Of a DNA stretch of 64,000 nucleotides, positions 6,433 through 56,707 are shown one piece after another. This DNA comes from a virus. The stretch is from the IMG/VR virus record IMGVR_UViG_3300032605_000012, positions 1 to 64,000 of that record, one strand, 5' to 3'. The translations under genes and the position numbers were made by a program. How positions within the stretch are numbered: the stretch's first letter is position 1; the number at the start of each line of letters is the position of its first letter. Below the pieces are notes generated by a model. The model was not told the origin of the DNA. It was given only the letters and a program-made list of their open reading frames with translations, and did not search any database.

Positions 6433-7095
6433 ATGCCAAGTAAGTACAAAGCTGGGGTCTATAAAATACTAAATACCATATCTGGTAAATGGTATGTTGG
6501 ATCTTCAAGTTTTTGTTTCAGAAGGTTTAACCAGCATAAGACGGCTTTAAGGGGCGGGTATCACCAAAATAAACATTTACAAAATTCTTGGATTAAATAT
6601 GGCGAGGATGCTTTTAAGTTTGAAATGGTTTTATTTTGCGAGCCAAAACTAATTCGTTTTTACGAACAGCTTATTCTGGATAAATTACAACCTCAATTTA
6701 ATCAATCTAAAAGTGCATATGCAGGAATCCCTATTGGTGCTACCTTAACAAAAGAGCATAAAGAAAAAGTTGGCAAGGCATCTTCTAAAATGTGGGAAGA
6801 TAAAGAATATAGATCAAAAGTAACGGCTGCTATTAATTTGTCAATGAATGATGAGGAATGCAAAAAACGTTCACAAAGAACTAAGCTTTTATGGGAAAAT
6901 AAAGAATATAGAGAAAAAGCAATTGCATCAAGAAAAGGTAAAGCTTATAGCAAAGGTTATAAATGCAATCCAGAACAAATAGAAAATAGAAGAAAAGCGG
7001 CAAGAATTTCAAATATGAAACGTAATTACGGTGATGTTTGGCAGCAAGAATATATTAGACGGTATCCAGAGCACTTAGGTGATTTAAATGCCTAG
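6433..7095 (+). CDS. GIY-YIG homing endonuclease with NUMOD3-like repeats
   Basis: The catalytic GIY-YIG domain occupies residues 6-95: GVYKILN, KWYVGSSS, the Arg in FRRFNQHK and the Glu in RFYEQLIL. Three short NUMOD3-like DNA-binding units follow (LTKEHKEKVGKASSKMW, KRSQRTKLLWENKEYREKA, EQIENRRKAARISNMKR). The gene is A/T-rich compared with its neighbours and separates two virion genes. Its first residues, MPSKY, copy the first residues of the next gene, so the insertion may mimic the start it displaced. It overlaps that gene by 8 bp. Confidence 0.87.
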   Translation: MPSKYKAGVYKILNTISGKWYVGSSSFCFRRFNQHKTALRGGYHQNKHLQNSWIKYGEDAFKFEMVLFCEPKLIRFYEQLILDKLQPQFNQSKSAYAGIPIGATLTKEHKEKVGKASSKMWEDKEYRSKVTAAINLSMNDEECKKRSQRTKLLWENKEYREKAIASRKGKAYSKGYKCNPEQIENRRKAARISNMKRNYGDVWQQEYIRRYPEHLGDLNA

Positions 7096-10063: not shown

Positions 10064-10717
10064 ATGTTTTATACATATGCTCATTACACCCCAGATGGAA
10101 ACCTTTTTTACATAGGGAAAGGTAGTAATAAGCGCCGTGCTTATTATTTTTCTGGACGTAATGATCGTTGGACAAAAAAAGTTAAAAAATACGGCTTACC
10201 AAAAGTTGAAATATTAGCTCAATGGGAAAAAGAACAAGATGCTTTTGAGCATGAAAAGTTTTTAATTTCTTGTTTTAGAGGTATGGGATTTGATCTTTGC
10301 AATCTAACAGATGGTGGAGATGGAACATCTGGTTACAAACAGACGCCTGAGCATATTGAAAAAAATAGACTCGCAAGAAAAGGTAAATCTGCATATTGGA
10401 ATATAGGTCGTAAACATTCAGAAGAAACTAAAATTAAATGTGGCGCCGCAAATATAGGTAGGCCTTCATCTGAAAAGCAAAAACAGATAGCTAGTAAGTT
10501 ATTTAAAGGTAACAAATATGGGGCCGGCAACACCAATAACCGTAAATGGAAATGGATTGGGGTGCATACTGTTACGGGCAAAGAAATATTTTTTATTGGT
10601 TCTATTGAATTAAACAAAGCAGGTTTTCAACACGGAAATGTATTAAAGTGCATTAATGGAACGCGCAAATCTCATAAAGGCTACACCTGGTCTAAAGTAC
10701 CTTTGGAGAATAAATAA
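10064..10717 (+). CDS. GIY-YIG homing endonuclease with NUMOD DNA-binding modules
   Basis: The N-terminal catalytic domain has a YTYAHYTPDGNLFYIGKG signature (a GIY-YIG variant) and the Glu of the AFEHEKFLI helix. Two NUMOD3-like units follow (TPEHIEKNRLARKGKS, SEETKIKCGAANIGRPSSEK), and a NUMOD1-like module closes the protein (IELNKAGFQHGNVLKCINGT). This is the modular layout of Seg/I-TevI-type homing enzymes. The gene is A/T-rich and separates two virion genes without any visible intron. Confidence 0.87.
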   Translation: MFYTYAHYTPDGNLFYIGKGSNKRRAYYFSGRNDRWTKKVKKYGLPKVEILAQWEKEQDAFEHEKFLISCFRGMGFDLCNLTDGGDGTSGYKQTPEHIEKNRLARKGKSAYWNIGRKHSEETKIKCGAANIGRPSSEKQKQIASKLFKGNKYGAGNTNNRKWKWIGVHTVTGKEIFFIGSIELNKAGFQHGNVLKCINGTRKSHKGYTWSKVPLENK

Positions 10718-16892: not shown

Positions 16893-18428
16893 ATGTCAAC
16901 AACGTACTCAACATCACTAAGACTGGCCATTATGGGCACGGGCGACCAGTCAGGAACCTGGGGCAATACAACCAATACTAACCTTGGAACTTTGCTTGAA
17001 CAGTCTATTTCCGGCGTCAGGCCGATCAGTTTAACGGGGTTAACTACCTATACATTACAGGCATATAACGGCACTGTAGATGACGCCAGGAGCATGGTTC
17101 TTGTGTTTACAGGAAGCCCAAGTGCTGGGGTAACTATCGTAGCTCCCCTGGTTAATAAGATGTATATTGTTGTTAACTTGTGCGGTCAGACTATAACTAT
17201 GTCTGCGACAGGTGGATCAACTACTTTAGCTATTCCTTACGGCTCGTCTGGAACTACGGCTCAATGTTATTGCGATGCAGCAAATGCCACAGGATCTGGA
17301 GCTGGCTTTTACTCTGCACAAACAGGATCGGCTGGTAACTTTAATATCAACGGTAACCTAAGTGTTACTGGAAATTCAACGGATGTAGGCAATTTATCTG
17401 CTGCCGGGGTTTTAGGAGCTTATACTGCCGCATCATTTACAGGTGGTATTTCTGGAACAACTTTAACGGTTAGCGCCATAGCCAGTGGGGTAATTTTTCC
17501 TGGTCAAAGGATTTCTGGAACAGGAGTTACAAGCGGAACCGAGATTATCAGCGGAAGTGGTACTACTTGGACGGTTAATATATCTCAGACGGTATCGGGC
17601 GGAACAACATTTACAGGCGCTGCGGGGGCAATAGCTCCAACTATGCCCACTGGGGATAATTCAGTAAACATAGCCACTACAGCTTTTGTTCAAACTTCGA
17701 CCAGTTCAATCCTTACCGTTCCAACAGGCACTATTAATATGTGGGCCACTTCTAGTGCGCCTACAGGATATTTGCTATGTAATGGCCAAGGAGTTTCTAC
17801 TTCTACTTACTCTGCATTATTTAGCGTATTGGGGTATACGTTTGGCGGATCAAGCGGTACTTTCTTGTTGCCTAATTATGCTGGGGCTATGCCAATTGGC
17901 GCTACATCTGGAAGCACATCTTCATTTACAGGAAGTATCTCAGGAACTACTCTAACTGTATCCGCCCTTGGATCTGGAACTATTGGTGTTAATCAAGTTC
18001 TTACAGGTGGTAGCGTGGCTTCTGGTACGACTATTACTGGATTTGTATCTGGAACTTTTGGAGGGGTTGGTGTTTACACGGTCAGCGTAACCCAGACTTT
18101 ATCCTCAACCAGTTTGACTGGAACTTTATCTGCAATATCAGTAGCTTCTACGGGCGGTGCAGCTACAACAGCTTTGACTTCTTCTGCGCAACTTCCAAGC
18201 CATAGCCATACTGCTGTATCTACTGACTCAGGCCACATACACGCTATTCGAGCATACCCGAACGCTGCTAGTAGTGGTGGTGGAGGTCTTGATGTTGGAG
18301 CATCTGGTAACTACAACACAAATACCGGCTATGCAAACGTTACGACAACCATTGGAAACACAGGATCAAGCACTGCATTTAGTACGATTTCTCCATATTT
18401 AGGTATTTACTTCATCATCAAAACTTAA
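16893..18428 (+). CDS. Tail collar fibre protein
   Basis: The 511-residue protein contains the phage tail collar domain at about residues 285-345 ([20 protein letters not shown], then [15 protein letters not shown]). It also has two copies of a Gly/Ser/Thr beta insertion ([13 protein letters not shown] and [13 protein letters not shown]) and a His-rich tip before the end ([20 protein letters not shown]), where bound metal is common in T4 gp12-like tips. It ends [10 protein letters not shown], typical of the family. It should be a short adhesin-type fibre. Confidence 0.8.
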
Positions 18429-18437
18429 GGACCAGTC

Positions 18438-19148
18438 ATTGAATTCCTGCTTCTTTTCCAAGCTGCCAATGCCGCATTCACTGGGGTCAAAGAGTTGTGC
18501 GCTATGTACAACGAAGGCAAAGCACTTGTCAAAGATGTACAAAAGACTGTCAATGAAGTTAAACAAATAGGGAAAGAGGTAAAGGGGATATGGGGGTGGA
18601 TAACAAATCTGTTTGCCCCTCCGGTGGAAGAGAAGAAAACACTGCAAGATATTCATCCTAAGAATCAGAAAAAGGAAAAGGTAAAGTTTGACGAAAAGGC
18701 TATTTACGCAGAGATTGGAGATCAGCTAGTTTCATTCTTCAAGAACTACAAAGCTTGTGCGGATGCAATTAGGACTGAAGAAGAACGGATTGAAAAAATT
18801 TACGATCCAGATGGTGAGACGTATGAGATAGCGATTCGGTTGGTTTTGGCAAAGACGCAGTTGGAGCAAATGGGTACAGATTTAACGGAATTCATGATCT
18901 ACCATGTCCCGCCAGAACTAAAAGATCTTTATACGCGCGTCAATGAAATGATCGGTACGGTTAAGGCAAAGCAGGAGATCGCAAGGAAGGCGGAGCTTAG
19001 GAAGAAAGCTCAGCGGGAAGCAGAGGCAAGGGATTTGGCAGATAGGGCTTGGTTGATGAGTGCTTACACGGTGGTGGTCATCTTTGTAGCAATATATTTG
19101 GCGGGACTGATGTGGGCAATAAATCGAGCGAGTCATGGGGGTATGTAA
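18438..19148 (+). CDS. Membrane/coiled-coil protein at the head of the lysis region; apparent AUU start
   Basis: The chain read from ATT at 18438 starts (M)EFLLLFQAANAAFTGVKEL, a start I recognise from related phage proteins. It continues with an amphipathic helix, a KTLQDIHPKN linker, a charged helical body and a C-terminal membrane segment (about residues 206-227, AYTVVVIFVAIYLAGLMWAI). AAGGA at 18427-18431 lies six bases before ATT. The first ordinary starts (TTG 18495, ATG 18504) would remove the hydrophobic N-terminus. The role is unknown. Position suggests a lysis or membrane function. Confidence 0.6.
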   Translation: MEFLLLFQAANAAFTGVKELCAMYNEGKALVKDVQKTVNEVKQIGKEVKGIWGWITNLFAPPVEEKKTLQDIHPKNQKKEKVKFDEKAIYAEIGDQLVSFFKNYKACADAIRTEEERIEKIYDPDGETYEIAIRLVLAKTQLEQMGTDLTEFMIYHVPPELKDLYTRVNEMIGTVKAKQEIARKAELRKKAQREAEARDLADRAWLMSAYTVVVIFVAIYLAGLMWAINRASHGGM

Positions 19149-29148: not shown

Positions 29149-32100
29149 ATGCCGTCTTTTAAAGTTAAAGATCCGTCTGGTACGGTATATACCGTTAACG
29201 CTCCAGAGGGAGCTACAGAAGACCAAGTTTTATCTTATGCTCAAGCAAATTTTGGTAACGCAAAAGAAGGTCAAGGCGACTTTATGCGTGGCCTTACTTC
29301 TATTGGATCTCAAGACCAAGAAGTGTTGGGCGGATTGCAAACCCTACTAGGGGCAGGTGCTAAGCATGTCTTAGGTAAGGGCGTAGTATCTGACTATTTG
29401 CTAGGCAAAGGGGTTAAGAACCTTAAAGAAGCAAACGAATCCCAGGAAAAGAATGCTAAAGAATCTGATGATTTAGAAAATGCTTATCACAAAGGGATTA
29501 GTACGGTTCTCACAGATTGGCTTCCTTATCAGATTGGTAGCGGCGTATCTAACTTGGCCGAGACTGGCGCATTTGCTTTGGCCGGCGGAGCTCTTGGAAC
29601 AGCTATAGCCCCTGGAGCAGGTACGCTAGAAGGCGCAATGGCTCCTATATTAAACAAGTCATTGGTTAAGCAAGGGATTAAGAATGCAGCAAAGGAAGTT
29701 CTTGAGAATGAGCTTAAGAATGGAGCTACTAAAGATGCAGCTAAGATTGCGGCCCAGACCTTTGTAGAAGATAAAGCTAAGCAAACTTTGGCAAAAGAAG
29801 AATTAGCTAAGTACGCTAGTTCAGGAGCATCTACTTTTGGACAGAATGCTGGAGTAGCCAGCCAAGCTTTATTTCATGGTATTGGTGAACCAACAAGTAG
29901 AGCTGCCCAGGAAGCCGGATACGATACAGATAAGATTGACTTTTCTAAGTTAGCTCCTGCTGTTGCGGTTCATTCTCTTGCCGACTTTGCTGCTGAAAAG
30001 ATTGGTCTAGGTGGACTTGAAGGAATAGGATCTAAATCTACCCGCAATTTATTTTTGGATATTGGTAAAGGAATGTTAGCCACTGGTGCTAAAGAAGTTC
30101 CTCCTGAGCTCGTCCAACAAGCTGCTGAGCGTTATGGTGCTGGGTTACCGTTAGCAGATAAGAACGCTATCAATGAGTATATTAATACTGCTGGTGGCGC
30201 GTTTGCTATGGGCATAGTTCCTGGCGGCGTAGGCGGTGTTAATACAAGAATGAATGCTGCGCCTATTAAACAAGCGCAAGCAATTCAAGAGCCAGAACAA
30301 GAAGAACAGCCTAGTTCTTATGCTCCTATGTTTGAAGGGGATCAATCCGATAGGTTCCGTAATCTTCCTGGGTTTGCCGGTCCTGCAAATCAAATGGGAT
30401 TTTTAGATGCTGCTCGTCAACAACAAGCTCAGGCCGCCGCTGAAGCAGAAGCTCAAAGACAAGAACAAATAAAACAAGTTAAACAAACCCAATATCACAC
30501 TGATCCAATGATGAATCAGTTAATTCAAAACAAAGAATTAGCTGCTTTACAACCGCAACAAGTGGCTGCAATGCAACCCGAACAAGCCGCTCCAGAAGCG
30601 CCGGTTGCTCCTCAGCTTGGTCAATCATTGACAAATACACCAATGAGCCAATTACTTGGCCAGCAAAATATAAATAATCAATTATTGGGACAAGCAAGAA
30701 CTAATGTTGCAGCGCAACAAGTAGAGCAAGATACCAGGCAAAAAAAGGCTATAGCTCAGATTAATAAAACAAAGTTTAGCGATGATCCTATTAAGGACAA
30801 ATTAGATCGCAATAGAGCTTTACAAGCCATTGGAGCTCCTGTTGTTGAAAATGCTCCTATGCAACCGCCTCCTCCTACAGCTCAACAAGCTTGGGATGCC
30901 ATGTCTCCTGATGAGAAAAAGAAAGCTATACAGACTGCTTCATCAAAAGATAGGTGGATGCAAAAGTGGGAAGATAGACAAAAGATGATGGAGAATGAGC
31001 AATGGGACCAAGTTTACGGGACCATGCCAAAAGAAACGGTTACAAAGCCTAAGCCAGAAATTAAATCATCTGAGCATCCTGAAAACATAGGCATTGTTGG
31101 ATATGACGATTTAAATAATCCCATTACTGGATTATTGTCAGAGGGAGCAACTCGCTTTAAGCATAAAGAAGATGCTATTCAAGCGAAGAAATTGCAACCA
31201 TTAATGCGAATATTGCCGATTGGCAATGAATTTGTTCTTACTCCAAAGACACAAGCTCAGTTAGATTCTGAGAAAAAGAATAATCGCAACCTAGGTAAAG
31301 TCACTGCTTCCGGCGAAAAGATGGGTGCTAGGAGTTTTATAGCATCGCAAGGTGGACTACATCCAGATGAGAAAACTGAGATGGGGCATGAGGATGTGCC
31401 TAATATTAAAGTTGGTGCTGGATGGTTATACGCAGGGCAAAATAATCCCGAAAAAGGGATGCGGATGGATAAAGCCGCTACAGCTTTGCATGAGTCTGGA
31501 TACATTTTAGATCCTAGTGATCACGAAGATGCTAGACAAGCAATTAAAAACGATAGACAAAAACCAGAAAATATAGAGGAATCATTAAATCAAAAAGGAG
31601 ATGAGGAGTATAAAGACTATCAAAAAAGTCTACTCATTGCCCATTTAAATGGTAAGCCCATATATGAAGACGAATTAGAAAATGAGTTACTAGATAACCT
31701 TATAAGCTTTGCCAAGCAAATAGGTATTGATACAAGAAGAATACATGAGGAAGCCTTTACCAGAGGAGAAACTCAAGCTGAAGCTGAGGATATGTATCAT
31801 CAGTTTTTGACTTCAGCTATAAAGGATTATCTTGGCAATAAACCTGAGACTTTACAATCAAAAGATGTAAGCAATAAGCCGGCAAATAATCCAGAAGAAG
31901 CTAGGATTCAGAAAGAGCTTACTGGTAAAACATTCATTCAGGCTGCTCAATGGGCTATTGCCAACGCGCCAAATAGCTTTGCTAGGTTTGTAGCCAATAA
32001 AGTTTTAACCCGCCTCCAGTCTATGCAAAAGGCCGGAGTAGTATATAACTTTGAAGTCGCAAGCGGTAACTCCAGGACTGGGGATCTAAGGTCTGCTAAG

Positions 32101-35100
32101 GGATTAACAAGTTTTGTTTGGGGCGCCCAAGGACAGCCTACGCTTATTTCCATTAAGCTAAATGGTGCTCCAGTATTTGCCAATCAAAATGGCTTCCCTT
32201 CTGGTATGGACTATACGGTGGTGCTACATGAACTGCTCCACGCTGCTACTCGCGGTCAGATGAGATTTTTGGCCAGTACAGATCCATTGGTAAAAGAGAT
32301 TAGAAGCTTGCATGAGACTGTTGTTAATAAATTTAACGAGGAAATAGCAAAGAATAAAGGCGCTGATTTACCTGATGTTTTAAAGAATTACTACAAGCGC
32401 ATGAACAATGCTTTGTCAGATCCTGATGAGCTTATCTCCTGGGGTATGACGGATAAAGGAATGCAGAAATTCTTATCTGATATTAAGGTAGGAAATAAAA
32501 CAGTCTTTTCTCACATTATTGGTTTGATTCGCCAGGTGCTAGGCATTGCTAAGAACTTTGAAACAGCATTAGATAGACTGGTTAGAACAACTGAATCATT
32601 ACTGGATGACACTCTAATTCCTTTACAAAATGGAATGGTTAAGGAGGGCTATGCTTTAGGCAAGCCGTCTACCGGGAAAATGGTTCAGCAGTCGCTATTC
32701 TCTAAGAAAGCGCAAGAGATGTTTGCTATGAAGTCTGTTCCAGAAATGGCTCAGGCGGCAGTAAATAAAGCTCAGGACGTTTTACAAAAACGCGCACCTT
32801 CGGATAAAAGTGCTTATGAGGGGATGCCTTCTTCTACTGTTGATGAGGCAGAAAAAATATTCCATCCTAGAAGCAAGACAATCATAGACCGTATTGCAGA
32901 GAACAAAGATAACTTCTGGAAGATGATTGCGCAAAAGACTGTTGATCAGTACCGCGCTATTAAAGATTTCTCTCCTATGGGTTATATGCAAGCTCGTCTA
33001 GCATCATCTGTTGACGGAGGGTTGCATGGCATGATGTTTAATGGCCATATCGCGCTAGAAGACGGAGCGCTAACCATTAAGCAAGGAGATAATTTTAAAG
33101 GGATGATCCAGGCTTTAGCTCCTCTTGGTAAAGAAGTGGATAGGTTCCAGCAGTGGATGGCTCTTAATAGAGAGGCATTATTGCCAGAGCATAAGCGCAC
33201 TCCTGCCTTGGCCAATCTTGTATCCAAGAAAGATGAGTACGTTAAAGGCGAGATTAACGGAAGACCAAGAATTGGAAAAGATAAAAACGGCAAAGACGGA
33301 GTTTATGAGCAAGCTCGTAAGGATATGATGGCGCTTAATAAGTCTGTTTTAGATGTTGCGCTCAAGCAAAATTTAATAGACAAAGAAGCATACGAAAGAT
33401 TTTCTAATGATGCCTTCTTCGTTCCTTTTTATAAGGTAATGGAAGATGGAAAGATTGAATCAATCCGTACCGCCTCCAGGATGACCAACCAGCAATTCTC
33501 TAAGATGCTTAAAGGAGGAGGCGAAAAGCCGTTCTCCGATCTTATGGAGAATACGCTTAGAAACTGGAGCCATATCCTTTCCGCCTCTATGAAGAATCAA
33601 GCGTCTTTGACAACCATTCAAGATGCTTCTGGACTAGGCGCTGCTACTCCAAATCTTAAGCAAGGATTTTTCTGGAAAGATGGTGCAGTGCACAATGAAA
33701 AGACTGGCAAGATTGTAGGCAATGGAGATCTGGTTCAGGAAGGTAAGGATGAGGATGGGAATAAAAAGATGCTCAGCTATACAACTGCTGGGCGCGAAAC
33801 GGTCAAGGTAAATATTGAAGGACATGAAACTCATTTTCATATCAATGATCCGTTCCTTTTTGAGTCTCTCAGTGCTGTTACATATTTAGGACCACAATCT
33901 AAAGTTCTTGATGTTATGCGCGGGTTTAAGAATGCGCTACGGTTTGGTGTAACGCTATCTCCCGCTTTCAAGGCATCTAACTTGATTAAGGATTCGATCC
34001 AGGCGGCAGGTCTATCTGGCCTTAATAATAACTTTGTTAAGAACGTAATGGATGGATGGGCATCTTCTCATAAAGATTCGCCCGTTTACATAGCCGCTCT
34101 CGCCGGTGGCGGTGTATTTAATTACGGCACTACATTAGAAGGTAATAGAAGTGAAGTAATTAAGAAGCTATTGGCCCGCGGTGTCAATGGAGATAATATT
34201 GTTGATACCAAGGAAAAGGCTAAGTTCTGGCTAACTAAGATCTGGCATAACTATGAAGACATAGGAAATAGATCTGAGAATATTAACCGCATAGCTTTAT
34301 ATGAAAAGTTAAAAAGTGAAGGCATGAGCCACTTAGAGGCCAGCTACCACGCTCGCGATTTGATGGACTTCTCCATGCAAGGATCTAGTGGGGCTATCAG
34401 GTATTTGTCTCAGATCGTTCCGTTTTTGAATGCTCGTTTGCAGGGCTTGTATAAGCTTGGTAGAGACGGTGTTATTCCTACGGTAAGGGTGTTCTATAGA
34501 CCAGATGGTAATCCGCTTACTCAAGATGAAAAACAAAAGGCTCAGTCCTTTATGACTGTTGCCGGCGCAATATCTTTAGCGTCTATGGCTTTGTACATGG
34601 CATTCAAAGATGATGATGACTTTAAGAAGCGCGAGCAGTGGGATCGTGATTTCTTCTGGTGGTTTAAGATACCTGGAACCCAGGAAGTTATTCGCATTCC
34701 TAAGCCGTTTGAATTTGGATCTATTGGTACTTTAGCCGAGCGGTCTTTGGAGCAGATCGTAGATAAAGACGTAGAAGGAAAACGCTTTGGAGAGAGTATT
34801 GGACGAATGGTGTTCCAGACTTTCTCTATGGATCCTACTCCTCAGTTCTTTAAGCCTTTAATTGACGTCTATGCTAATAAAGATTCCTTTACCAATGCGC
34901 CGATTGAAACTGCGGGCATGGAGCGGTTATCTAAGCAAGAACGTATGACCAATGAAACCAGTGCTTTGGCAAAGGGTCTAGGAGGCGTTTCCAAGGCCCT
35001 AGGAGCTGTTTCCGGCGGCAAGGCAGAAATGTCTCCAGTACAGATAGATTACATGATTAAAAGCTATCTAGGATGGCTTGGTGGAACTATAGCGACTACA

Positions 35101-35526
35101 TCTCAATATGCAATGATGCCGTTTAATAATGGTGTTTATGCGGATGCGGATTGGCAAAAGCGGATGAGCTTAGGTTTTGTGCAAAAACTACCTAGCGTTC
35201 AATCTACTTACGTTACTGATTTCTATCAGAATAACCAGGCTATCAGCGAAGCATATGCAGATATGAGGCATTATGCTGAGATTGGAGATTCTTCTAAGGT
35301 TCAGCAGATATTAGAAGAGAAGGGCGATCTGATCCGGCTTGAGAAAATGTATGATGCAACGTCTAAGAATATGGCTAACATTCGTAAGCAGTTGAATCAT
35401 ATTCAAGATCCAAACAATACATCTTTGACCGGAGAACAGAAGGCAAATGAGGTCTTAAGACTTAAAGGATTGATATCTGATCTAGCACAGAGAGCAGAAA
35501 GTATTAGGCTGTCTATGAAAAAGTAA
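29149..35526 (+). CDS. Giant ejection protein with HExxH motif (polyvalent-type)
   Basis: This 2125-residue protein is the largest in the window. It starts FKVKDPSGTVYTVNAPEGAT, an N-terminal module common to phage internal proteins. A Zn-peptidase-like motif, VVLHELLHAATRG (HELLH at residues 1027-1031), sits in the middle. The C-terminal third (FGVTLSPAFKASNLIKDSIQ, then SQIVPFLNARLQGLYKLGRD) resembles the LPD-type region of large polyvalent proteins. Position after the transglycosylase gene matches the longest ejection protein that lines the entry channel. Protease activity is inferred from the motif only. Its stop codon lies inside the left 44-bp repeat. Confidence 0.72.
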   Translation: MPSFKVKDPSGTVYTVNAPEGATEDQVLSYAQANFGNAKEGQGDFMRGLTSIGSQDQEVLGGLQTLLGAGAKHVLGKGVVSDYLLGKGVKNLKEANESQEKNAKESDDLENAYHKGISTVLTDWLPYQIGSGVSNLAETGAFALAGGALGTAIAPGAGTLEGAMAPILNKSLVKQGIKNAAKEVLENELKNGATKDAAKIAAQTFVEDKAKQTLAKEELAKYASSGASTFGQNAGVASQALFHGIGEPTSRAAQEAGYDTDKIDFSKLAPAVAVHSLADFAAEKIGLGGLEGIGSKSTRNLFLDIGKGMLATGAKEVPPELVQQAAERYGAGLPLADKNAINEYINTAGGAFAMGIVPGGVGGVNTRMNAAPIKQAQAIQEPEQEEQPSSYAPMFEGDQSDRFRNLPGFAGPANQMGFLDAARQQQAQAAAEAEAQRQEQIKQVKQTQYHTDPMMNQLIQNKELAALQPQQVAAMQPEQAAPEAPVAPQLGQSLTNTPMSQLLGQQNINNQLLGQARTNVAAQQVEQDTRQKKAIAQINKTKFSDDPIKDKLDRNRALQAIGAPVVENAPMQPPPPTAQQAWDAMSPDEKKKAIQTASSKDRWMQKWEDRQKMMENEQWDQVYGTMPKETVTKPKPEIKSSEHPENIGIVGYDDLNNPITGLLSEGATRFKHKEDAIQAKKLQPLMRILPIGNEFVLTPKTQAQLDSEKKNNRNLGKVTASGEKMGARSFIASQGGLHPDEKTEMGHEDVPNIKVGAGWLYAGQNNPEKGMRMDKAATALHESGYILDPSDHEDARQAIKNDRQKPENIEESLNQKGDEEYKDYQKSLLIAHLNGKPIYEDELENELLDNLISFAKQIGIDTRRIHEEAFTRGETQAEAEDMYHQFLTSAIKDYLGNKPETLQSKDVSNKPANNPEEARIQKELTGKTFIQAAQWAIANAPNSFARFVANKVLTRLQSMQKAGVVYNFEVASGNSRTGDLRSAKGLTSFVWGAQGQPTLISIKLNGAPVFANQNGFPSGMDYTVVLHELLHAATRGQMRFLASTDPLVKEIRSLHETVVNKFNEEIAKNKGADLPDVLKNYYKRMNNALSDPDELISWGMTDKGMQKFLSDIKVGNKTVFSHIIGLIRQVLGIAKNFETALDRLVRTTESLLDDTLIPLQNGMVKEGYALGKPSTGKMVQQSLFSKKAQEMFAMKSVPEMAQAAVNKAQDVLQKRAPSDKSAYEGMPSSTVDEAEKIFHPRSKTIIDRIAENKDNFWKMIAQKTVDQYRAIKDFSPMGYMQARLASSVDGGLHGMMFNGHIALEDGALTIKQGDNFKGMIQALAPLGKEVDRFQQWMALNREALLPEHKRTPALANLVSKKDEYVKGEINGRPRIGKDKNGKDGVYEQARKDMMALNKSVLDVALKQNLIDKEAYERFSNDAFFVPFYKVMEDGKIESIRTASRMTNQQFSKMLKGGGEKPFSDLMENTLRNWSHILSASMKNQASLTTIQDASGLGAATPNLKQGFFWKDGAVHNEKTGKIVGNGDLVQEGKDEDGNKKMLSYTTAGRETVKVNIEGHETHFHINDPFLFESLSAVTYLGPQSKVLDVMRGFKNALRFGVTLSPAFKASNLIKDSIQAAGLSGLNNNFVKNVMDGWASSHKDSPVYIAALAGGGVFNYGTTLEGNRSEVIKKLLARGVNGDNIVDTKEKAKFWLTKIWHNYEDIGNRSENINRIALYEKLKSEGMSHLEASYHARDLMDFSMQGSSGAIRYLSQIVPFLNARLQGLYKLGRDGVIPTVRVFYRPDGNPLTQDEKQKAQSFMTVAGAISLASMALYMAFKDDDDFKKREQWDRDFFWWFKIPGTQEVIRIPKPFEFGSIGTLAERSLEQIVDKDVEGKRFGESIGRMVFQTFSMDPTPQFFKPLIDVYANKDSFTNAPIETAGMERLSKQERMTNETSALAKGLGGVSKALGAVSGGKAEMSPVQIDYMIKSYLGWLGGTIATTSQYAMMPFNNGVYADADWQKRMSLGFVQKLPSVQSTYVTDFYQNNQAISEAYADMRHYAEIGDSSKVQQILEEKGDLIRLEKMYDATSKNMANIRKQLNHIQDPNNTSLTGEQKANEVLRLKGLISDLAQRAESIRLSMKK

Positions 35527-40963: not shown

Positions 40964-41446
40964 TTAATTGTGTTTTGCAAAATTTTTATGGTTTTTATTT
41001 CTAAAACTCATAATTGCATTTGCGGCTTCATGAATGTCTTCGTAGCTTCCTATATGATGTTTTTTATTATTAACAACGCATTGAGCTATCCATTTTTTTG
41101 TTTCTTTGTTGAAATAAACTCCTTTAAATCCTGATTTGTTATTAATTGGTTTTTTTGAATTTCTCATGTTCTCTGCATGAGTTGCGCTTCTTAAGTTTGA
41201 AATTAAATTGTTTGAAGGGTTCCCGTCAATATGATCAATAATTTTTGGAAGATATCCATGAAACATTAAAAAAATTAATCTATGAGTGCCATAAAGTTTT
41301 CCATTTAATCTAATTTCACAATATCCATTTTTTTTTGTTCTACCTGCTTTTTCTCCAATCTTCATTTTTCTTTTATCAACATTCCAAAAAAGAACTCCAT
41401 CTTTATATATAAAAACTTCTTTTAAATATTCTTGAGATATGTTCAT
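40964..41446 (-). CDS. HNH-AP2-type homing endonuclease
   Basis: From ATG at 41446 (GGGG six bases upstream) the product has 160 residues. The N-terminal HNH_3 region contains THRLIFLMFHGYLPKIIDHI and DGNPSNNLISNLRSATHAEN. The C-terminal part, SGFKGVYFNKETKKWIAQCV, is an AP2-type DNA-binding domain. This is a standard homing-endonuclease combination. It is A/T-rich and interrupts the operon between exonuclease and SPFH genes, next to a long inverted repeat. Confidence 0.87.
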   Translation of the reverse strand: MNISQEYLKEVFIYKDGVLFWNVDKRKMKIGEKAGRTKKNGYCEIRLNGKLYGTHRLIFLMFHGYLPKIIDHIDGNPSNNLISNLRSATHAENMRNSKKPINNKSGFKGVYFNKETKKWIAQCVVNNKKHHIGSYEDIHEAANAIMSFRNKNHKNFAKHN

Positions 41447-41460
41447 TATTTCCCCTTTAA

Positions 41461-41490
41461 ATGTGGGAATAATATCACAAATTCCCACAT
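41461..41490 (-). terminator. Perfect 10-bp inverted repeat between exonuclease and HNH genes
   Basis: ATGTGGGAAT (41461-41470) and ATTCCCACAT (41481-41490) are exact complements around a 10-base loop. It starts one base after the exonuclease stop. Read on the - strand, the hairpin is followed by TTTAAA, not a strong T-run. It may act as a partial terminator or protect the 3' end of the exonuclease message; an operator is also possible. Confidence 0.5.
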
Positions 41491-55740: not shown

Positions 55741-55974
55741 TTAACCCCTAAATAAAAAGGCGGATACGGGAATAGATAAGACCAATATCATGCCAATTGC
55801 CACGGATAAATTGTCCAATACTTCTAGTCTGTGGCTTCTCGTTTCGTATGCTTTGCGAAGCTCTACGGGTTCGAGTCCGTGCGAATAGGCGGTGTACTTA
55901 ATGGCATCTATGTACGTCTGCCCTTCTTCTAGTCGCCGGTTTATTTCTTTATAAGCTCTTTTTGGAATATACAT
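55741..55974 (-). CDS. Small membrane protein downstream of a hammerhead ribozyme
   Basis: This 77-residue protein has a helical, basic N-terminus and one C-terminal membrane segment (LSVAIGMILVLSIPVSAFLF). Its message would gain a new 5' end 27 nt before the ATG through cleavage at 56001/56002. The new leader holds AAAGGA. The function is unknown. Confidence 0.55.
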   Translation of the reverse strand: MYIPKRAYKEINRRLEEGQTYIDAIKYTAYSHGLEPVELRKAYETRSHRLEVLDNLSVAIGMILVLSIPVSAFLFRG

Positions 55975-55995: not shown

Positions 55996-56046
55996 GATCT
56001 ATACCCCGGGAAGGGGTTTCGGCCAATTAGGCCTCATCAGTAGACC
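55996..56046 (-). ncRNA. Hammerhead ribozyme 2 (type I)
   Basis: On the - strand all parts are present. Stem I is GGUCUA (56046-56041) with UAGAUC (56001-55996), 6 bp including one G-U. The core CUGAUGA is at 56040-56034. Stem II is GGCC-UAAUU-GGCC (56033-56021). The core GAAA is at 56020-56017. Stem III is CCCC-UUCCC-GGGG (56016-56004), followed by UA. Cleavage is predicted between A56002 and U56001 (GUA site). The stop codon of the upstream gene touches stem I. Confidence 0.9.
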
Positions 56047-56367
56047 TTAGGCGGGAACAGTTGCAGGGTTTAGTTCTTCATCCCAATTAGATAGAACGTT
56101 GAGCGCGTCCGCTTCTACGTCATATGCCCAATTGGTCGAGTCCTCATCTTCATCGTCATAAACTGCAACCACTTCATAATAAGTGCCGAAGTCGTGCGAA
56201 TTAGCCTTTATTGATAAGTATCCTTTTTCTGGCTCGGGATAGTGTTTAAGTATCTGTATCGCAAAAAGTCTACATTCTGCGCGAGCACGGTTCGCATAAT
56301 TCTCTGAGCCTACCTGAGCGCAATCCTCATCTGTTGGCGTTGAGCCAATATATAAATGATCTTTCAT
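56047..56367 (-). CDS. Early protein between two hammerhead ribozymes
   Basis: This 106-residue protein contains MKDHLYIGSTPTDEDCAQVG, YANRARAECRLFAIQILKHY and NSHDFGTYYEVVAVYDDEDE. I recognise this pattern from small phage and plasmid accessory proteins of unknown role. Hammerheads lie 20-70 nt before its start and directly after its stop, so self-cleavage could release it as a monocistronic message. Confidence 0.6.
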   Translation of the reverse strand: MKDHLYIGSTPTDEDCAQVGSENYANRARAECRLFAIQILKHYPEPEKGYLSIKANSHDFGTYYEVVAVYDDEDEDSTNWAYDVEADALNVLSNWDEELNPATVPA

Positions 56368-56387
56368 TGGTTTATTTCCTTTTATTT

Positions 56388-56437
56388 GGTTAAGACCGCC
56401 GGAGCGGTTTCGACTATTAAAGTCTCATCAGTTAACC
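56388..56437 (-). ncRNA. Hammerhead ribozyme 1 (type I)
   Basis: On the - strand stem I is GGUUAA (56437-56432) with UUAACC (56393-56388), a perfect 6 bp. The core CUGAUGA is at 56431-56425. Stem II is GACU-UUAAU-AGUC (56424-56412). GAAA is at 56411-56408. Stem III is CCGC-UCCG-GCGG (56407-56396), followed by UC. The cleavage site is GUC, between C56394 and U56393. It begins four bases after a stop codon and leaves a 26-nt leader with AAAAGGA on the next gene. Confidence 0.93.
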
Positions 56438-56441
56438 TAAA

Positions 56442-56630
56442 TTAAAAATATCCTAAAGGATGCCCGGTTTCGTCATAAACACGGATTACTACTAATCCCT
56501 TAGAGTTATTTACATCTTCTACTTTATATGTCCATCCGTCTAACTCATCCGCATTGTTTTGGTAACAAATAAACTGAGCCTGCTTAGGCGTGAAGTAGCT
56601 TTGTGGAGTTTCTGTTGATAGTGTTAGCAT
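56442..56630 (-). CDS. Small early protein upstream of hammerhead 1
   Basis: From ATG at 56630 (AAAAGGAA upstream) the product has 62 residues: MLTLSTETPQSYFTPKQAQF, then LDGWTYKVEDVNNSKGLVVI. Longer readings run through a hairpin and lack a ribosome site. The function is unknown. Its stop codon lies four bases before the ribozyme. Confidence 0.55.
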   Translation of the reverse strand: MLTLSTETPQSYFTPKQAQFICYQNNADELDGWTYKVEDVNNSKGLVVIRVYDETGHPLGYF

Positions 56631-56667
56631 TGGTTTTAGTTCCTTTTGGGTTTTAGGCTTATGCCTC

Positions 56668-56696
56668 ATAAGACTACTCGCCGGGAATAGTCTTAT
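56668..56696 (-). other. 9-bp inverted repeat in the gap before the 56630 gene
   Basis: ATAAGACTA (56668-56676) and TAGTCTTAT (56688-56696) pair perfectly around an 11-base loop. It occupies the same relative place as the two ribozymes but lacks their core bases. An RNA-stability or partial terminator role is possible. Confidence 0.5.
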
Positions 56697-56707
56697 AAAG
56701 TTACCTA

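Follow-up and report, generated by a model that had tools for sequence, protein, structure and literature searches.

Two type I hammerhead ribozymes between the genes of a phage operon and their probable role in cutting its polycistronic RNA

Two type I hammerhead ribozymes, HH1 and HH2, were identified on the minus strand of a viral genome fragment, one on either side of a 106-aa ORF. The window, i.e. the whole stretch of 64,000 nucleotides that was analyzed, is part of a 67,294-bp IMG/VR virus record. We consider it probable (roughly 80%) that the two elements act as intercistronic cutters of a polycistronic phage RNA. This reading draws on their sequence, structure, conservation and covariation, on the covariation of a putative tertiary contact and on their placement, from which we infer cleavage, the chemistry of the ends and an effect on message stability or translation. 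The features concerned, all on the minus strand, are the following.

56442-56630, minus strand: ORF B, 62 aa, upstream of HH1 (stop codon 56444-56442), without a family match
56388-56437, minus strand: HH1, hammerhead ribozyme 1, type I (covariance model 65.4 bits, E 2.5e-16; descriptor; fold)
56437-56432 with 56393-56388, minus strand: stem I of HH1; core CUGAUGA at 56431-56425
56424-56412, minus strand: stem II of HH1 with UUAAU loop; GAAA at 56411-56408; stem III at 56407-56396
56394/56393, minus strand: predicted cleavage of HH1, after C56394
56438 and 56387, minus strand: A at -1 of stem I of HH1 and A on its other side, together the A/A flank for which a contact with loop II is proposed (-1 is A in 167 of the 180 homologues listed; loop II/flank co-variation)
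56368-56393, minus strand: predicted leader of 26 nt with a 5'-OH, which HH1 cleavage would leave on the mRNA of the 106-aa ORF; it holds an AAGGA-type ribosome site
56047-56367, minus strand: ORF C, 106 aa, between HH1 and HH2, with 44 viral relatives
55996-56046, minus strand: HH2, hammerhead ribozyme 2, type I (covariance model 58.3 bits, E 3e-14; descriptor; fold)
56046-56041 with 56001-55996, minus strand: stem I of HH2; core CUGAUGA at 56040-56034
56033-56021, minus strand: stem II of HH2 with UAAUU loop; GAAA at 56020-56017; stem III at 56016-56004
56002/56001, minus strand: predicted cleavage of HH2, after A56002
55975-56001, minus strand: predicted leader of 27 nt with a 5'-OH, which HH2 cleavage would leave on the mRNA of the 77-aa ORF
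55741-55974, minus strand: ORF D, 77 aa, downstream of HH2

From 56437 to 56388 HH1 reads GGUUAA-CUGAUGA-GACU(UUAAU)AGUC-GAAA-CCGCUCCGGCGG-UC^UUAACC, and from 56046 to 55996 HH2 reads GGUCUA-CUGAUGA-GGCC(UAAUU)GGCC-GAAA-CCCCUUCCCGGGG-UA^UAGAUC. Stems I, II and III comprise 6, 4 and 4 bp in both. In HH1 they are formed by GGUUAA/UUAACC, GACU-UUAAU-AGUC and CCGC/GCGG, followed by GU C^, and in HH2 by GGUCUA/UAGAUC, GGCC-UAAUU-GGCC and CCCC/GGGG, followed by GU A^; the predicted cleavage sites are thus GUC and GUA, respectively. The core C3U4G5A6N7G8A9, G12A13A14A15.1, U16.1 and H17 is present letter for letter in either element, the ends lie in stem I as in the type I topology, and the MFE as well as the centroid structure of each is a hammerhead with three helices round the core, the pairs adjoining the core being intact. 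Sequence and fold agree with an earlier note on this DNA, which had described two complete minus-strand hammerheads with the core CUGAUGA, GAAA and three stems. That HH1 and HH2 are hammerheads by structural class is strongly supported.

A three-type hammerhead descriptor gave 1 match per 3.8 Mb of dinucleotide-shuffled sequence, as against two within 442 nt here, which bears out the claim that the pair is not a chance occurrence. The covariance model R1, trained on 47 relatives of which one is the orthologue of HH2 in locus L084, detected only HH1 and HH2 in the window and nothing else up to E 10. The Rfam hammerhead search proposed in the earlier note gave a divided result: at the gathering thresholds of Rfam 15 neither element was reported in the window, while weak hammerhead matches of 19-20 bits appeared below threshold (Hammerhead_3 as the best with 19.6 bits versus 48.5, RAGATH-1 with 19.4 bits). 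A gathering threshold is an annotation cut-off and not a catalytic criterion, and we claim no Rfam-family membership by score. Just one of 41 descriptor-defined ribozymes from 12 ribozyme-rich loci was reported by Rfam. Sub-threshold matches to non-hammerhead families were treated as chance.

Each element lies between a stop codon and the next start codon. The stop codon of the 62-aa ORF is located 4 nt before HH1, and that of the 106-aa ORF directly abuts HH2 (0 nt). The predicted cuts are 26 nt upstream of AUG 56367 (HH1) and 27 nt upstream of AUG 55974 (HH2). The coordinates thus confirm the intercistronic placement that had been suggested before, with elements 0-4 bases past a stop codon and a short leader in front of the next gene, and this layout recurs in hundreds of viral loci, from many environmental phages that are unrelated to one another. 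The operon may be an early one, as the earlier note supposed. The ORFs around HH1 and HH2 have almost no family matches, and promoter and terminator scans gave chance level only. ORF A and ORF B are separated by a gap that a strong 16-bp hairpin (56640-56705, minus strand; z -3.9) fills, precisely at the place where L084 has its HH1 behind ORF A; L083 lacks this hairpin. It could be a decayed or a different RNA element. With neither a hammerhead core nor a model match nor an exact match in viral contigs, it was not counted as a third ribozyme. Elsewhere in the window, ORFs resembling GIY-YIG and HNH homing endonucleases (6433-7095, 10064-10717, 1021-1611 and 40964-41488; judged from sequence) lie between structural and replication genes, and the late gene block ends with a 2125-aa ORF (29149-35526), preceded by a 775-aa ORF that resembles a lytic transglycosylase, likewise as judged from sequence.

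The virus infects bacteria. It is a tailed phage, as its terminase large subunit was matched by PHROGs. This protein is 48-57% identical to those of marine and freshwater phages, among them 023Pt_psg01, DSL-LC04 and Pelagibacter phage HTVC027P. Such ribozymes were not found in the scanned parts of the terminase-related named phages 023Pt_psg01, DSL-LC04, HTVC027P and MinM2; the DNA of the window region had no match among named phages, and the 106-aa ORF had none there by tblastn. Via relatives of this ORF, orthologous ribozymes were found in six viral loci (L083-L088). They keep all core bases, the pairs of stems II and III change on both sides, and free variation is confined to N7, H17 and loop positions. 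Between HH2 of the window and its counterpart in L084, for instance, the stem II pair C-G is replaced by U-A and one stem III pair is altered on both sides, and the catalytic bases are all kept. Compensatory changes had been named as a check in the earlier note, and an unconserved core in relatives as grounds for giving up the idea; the stems changed in the compensatory manner, and the core proved to be conserved. The gene for the 106-aa ORF also bears a hammerhead at its 3' end in locus L101, where the ORF is 52% identical; the stems of this hammerhead are unrelated. The gene order is A-B-HH1-C-HH2-D in the window versus A-HH1-C-B-HH2-E in L084, and in L096-L098 the C-B junction is without a ribozyme. 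It follows that the ribozymes are both gained and lost, yet maintained where present. Elements of this kind are dispensable in some lineages, as C and B adjoin without one in relatives and the named relatives, partly scanned, are without them.

Scans of viral contigs yielded at least 180 distinct type I ribozymes in at least 123 viral loci. Among the 180 homologues listed, stem I has exactly 6 bp in 173, the flanking position -1 is A in 167 and +1 is A in 165, and loop II is mostly U-N-A-N-U. A core pattern with the core and two stem III pairs fixed and stem I unspecified matched at least 119 viral stretches. Stem I measured 6 bp or more in 126 of the 135 distinct viral matches listed with a stem III (exactly 6 bp in 124); random bases would give about 0.3%. 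Among 116 matches to this pattern in cellular genomes, a 6-bp stem I was present in 5 only; the cellular matches, being mostly background, were discarded as a clue to the host, and no host was inferred from them.

Wherever a locus held several ribozymes, all copies resided on a single strand (49 of 49), and near-identical copies occur within contigs L177 and L219. Arrays reach 9 ribozymes in 4.3 kb on one contig and 13 over approximately 23 kb on another, the highest count per contig. The RNA polymerase encoded by the latter (G039, 39.8 kb; loci L200 and L366-L367) matches the PHROGs families 'RNA polymerase' and 'N4-like RNA polymerase'. Its 13 type I hammerheads lie on one strand, some among DNA polymerase and thymidylate synthase genes, and versions with a RUAA loop and with a UNANU loop co-occur. 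Cultured carriers include the pelagiviruses HTVC019P, HTVC022P, HTVC131P, HTVC304P and Jormungand as well as Flavobacterium phage elemoA. In Flavobacterium phage elemoA_8-9C (L374), the leftward operon opens, in the annotation, with CDS 18837-19052, and a type III hammerhead (19067-19121, minus strand) precedes this gene by about 15 nt; a type I ribozyme is present at 16970-17036. In L176, L189, L201 and L207, a single contig carries type III together with type I hammerheads, all on one strand; some phages thus mix hammerhead topologies.

Across 47 diverse members, 99.9% of the pair cells were paired and 224 two-sided changes were counted, in a set chosen by a descriptor that requires pairing, so that the unbiased test of stem I is the core pattern, which is silent on this stem. 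The covariation score of the 47 members was 0.817, compared with 0.166 for shuffled sequences and about 0.05-0.091 for slid partners, a statistic that, like those on genomic context given below, counts related sequences and not independent events. The unpaired core was conserved throughout.

A second kind of co-variation concerned loop II. Ribozymes with a UNANU loop II have A on both flanks of stem I in 114 of 115 cases, the version to which both HH1 and HH2 conform. An independent scan for a 4-nt RUAA loop II produced 100 distinct matches, 70 of which were full type I ribozymes. In 69 of these 70, the 6-bp stem I is followed directly on its 3' side by U (+1), and A/A flanks occur in 0 of 70. 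The search patterns had left the flanks unspecified, and the association of loop class with flank was highly significant (Fisher p=6e-51), a value that overstates independence because of kin sequences, although the stems vary widely within each loop class. This co-variation strongly implies a tertiary contact between stems I and II, which would be of the kind that lets hammerheads cut fast at low Mg2+. On its simplest reading, loop II would directly touch stem I at its open end, and this contact would exist in two alternative versions. In natural fast hammerheads of type I (Schistosoma) and type III (satellite RNA), loops I and II are in contact, and the stem II loop touches nucleotides beyond a short stem I. 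The receptor in the phage ribozymes differs from these in that, to judge from covariation, it would be an open single-stranded flank of stem I instead of a closed or internal loop. Because stem I is open-ended, the proposed contact is here without a solved precedent. The co-variation points to selection for a folded and active ribozyme.

The arrangement of stop codon, ribozyme and leader was equally regular. In 152 of the 169 homologues listed the upstream stop lies inside the ribozyme or at most 5 nt before it; 104 of the 169 upstream frames terminate within the ribozyme, and 28 others run right up to it. The stops fall into three fixed registers: at -6 they are mostly the UAA of stem I, at -10 the UGA of the invariant core (33 cases) and at -20 the UGA or UAA of loop II. 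The distance from the predicted cleavage site to the next start codon preceded by a Shine-Dalgarno sequence has a median of 27 nt (IQR 25-32), versus a median of 49 for random positions. Both criteria, stop and start, held for 122 of the 180 homologues listed, for 62 of 1800 random positions and for 1 of 180 on the reverse strand. The RUAA class, which stems from an independent scan, repeats the layout, with the stop at a median of -2 and the start 27-29 nt after the predicted cut. As a consequence of the type I topology every such stop stays upstream of the predicted cut, so that the upstream message would never be without its stop codon. A makes up 50% of the short downstream leader versus 27% of the strand, and stem III is GC-rich in most members.

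According to the reading we prefer, which essentially bears out that of the earlier note, each ribozyme would fold from its three stems, the first of 6 bp, once the minus-strand operon is transcribed, be locked by the contact of the 5-nt UNANU loop II with the A/A just outside stem I, and cut after GUC or GUA. Cleavage and the nature of the ends would follow from the known hammerhead class. Nearly the whole ribozyme, together with every upstream stop codon, would be left on the upstream RNA, which would terminate 3' in a GC-rich hairpin bearing a 2',3'-cyclic phosphate, and the downstream gene would receive an A-rich 5'-OH leader of 26-27 nt, just enough for the ribosome site. Active ribozymes might, however, mainly serve to stabilize the messages, the 5'-OH leader resisting decay that depends on a 5'-monophosphate and the GC-rich cyclic-phosphate hairpin protecting the upstream 3' end. 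The type I topology leaves exactly such ends, and the composition of stem III and leader fits. This role is compatible with processing and does not exclude it; we hold it to be possible but give it less than an even chance as the main function. The stops inside the ribozyme, in three registers and found again in the RUAA class, make a gating by ribosomes a concrete possibility: a terminating ribosome would block folding, and cleavage would report the translation level of the upstream gene. Tight packing alone could account for the position of the stops, though, the core inevitably presents an in-frame UGA to any frame entering it, and the UAA of stem I occurs beyond the frame that makes use of it, which leaves a three-frame-stop design of this stem as no more than a possibility. 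We therefore consider gating rather doubtful. The same tentative standing is given to a wider proposal, in which a single 50-nt element would work as a full stop, providing both the upstream stop codon in all three frames (UAA of stem I, UGA of the core, UGA or UAA of loop II) and the RNA cleavage with which the following message begins, gated by ribosomes and held by two interchangeable tertiary locks, and in which some phages would punctuate long stretches of their genome in this way.

That the elements are primarily joints for recombination, helping to shuffle cassettes of small early genes with cleavage being secondary, is unlikely. Ribozyme sequences persist between the window and L084 although the genes are ordered differently, and the near-identical copies within contigs would fit as well, but invariant catalytic bases, loop-flank co-variation and a fixed distance to the start codon would be left unexplained. 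Ordinary hairpins, terminators or RNase sites that look like hammerheads by chance, are common in the gaps of phage genomes and could have the GC-rich stem III. The rate of one chance match per 3.8 Mb, the lack of U runs after the elements and the loop-flank co-variation all speak against them, and the unpaired core, which stayed constant in 47 diverse members while the stems changed, refutes them, so that we regard this explanation as highly improbable.

The idea that clustered hammerheads cut phage transcripts is not new. Clustered prophage hammerheads flank single phage genes of unknown function, and processing to single-gene mRNAs was proposed for them in 2011 (Perreault et al. 2011; PMC3088659). 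Three tandem sets, from loci other than the window, cut in vitro and one in E. coli (PMC3088659). As in these clusters, several hammerheads surround phage genes here, the window having two in the same direction. The published sets comprise a few tandem ribozymes of mixed type with a pseudoknot lock in about 40% (PMC3088659), whereas the ribozymes described here are uniformly type I, with a 6-bp stem I, a stop in or against the ribozyme, a leader of about 27 nt and as many as 13 copies; their putative lock, formed by loop and flank and not a pseudoknot, comes in two versions. HHphage of the haloviruses HF1/HF2 likewise sits closely in front of a phage start codon, 13 nt away, and a transcript 5' end was mapped within 3 nt of its cut (PMC3088659). 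It differs in being a variant hammerhead of an archaeal host and a single element that heads a transcript instead of separating cistrons. Hammerhead_1 (RF00163), Hammerhead_3 (RF00008) and the RAGATH-1 hammerhead (RF03152) of Rfam share the catalytic core and the three-stem junction with HH1 and HH2, which score below the gathering values of these families and have sub-threshold matches to RF00008 and RF03152. The occurrence of type I, II and III hammerheads in phages is general knowledge in reviews (PMC6155905, PMC7761336), and the role of prokaryotic and phage hammerheads has been described as an open question (PMC6155905). In the open literature searched, the coverage of which was incomplete, we found no earlier report of the stop-ribozyme-leader layout. 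The strict layout, the two alternative tertiary locks, the long arrays and the cultured carriers appear to be new, with priority uncertain.

As Rfam thresholds miss almost all of these ribozymes, phage genomes are under-annotated for hammerheads. The cultured carriers, Pelagivirus HTVC019P and its relatives and the Flavobacterium elemo phages, make the processing directly testable. The strict and widespread layout and the covariation of the tertiary lock argue for mRNA-processing devices that have been selected in these phages.
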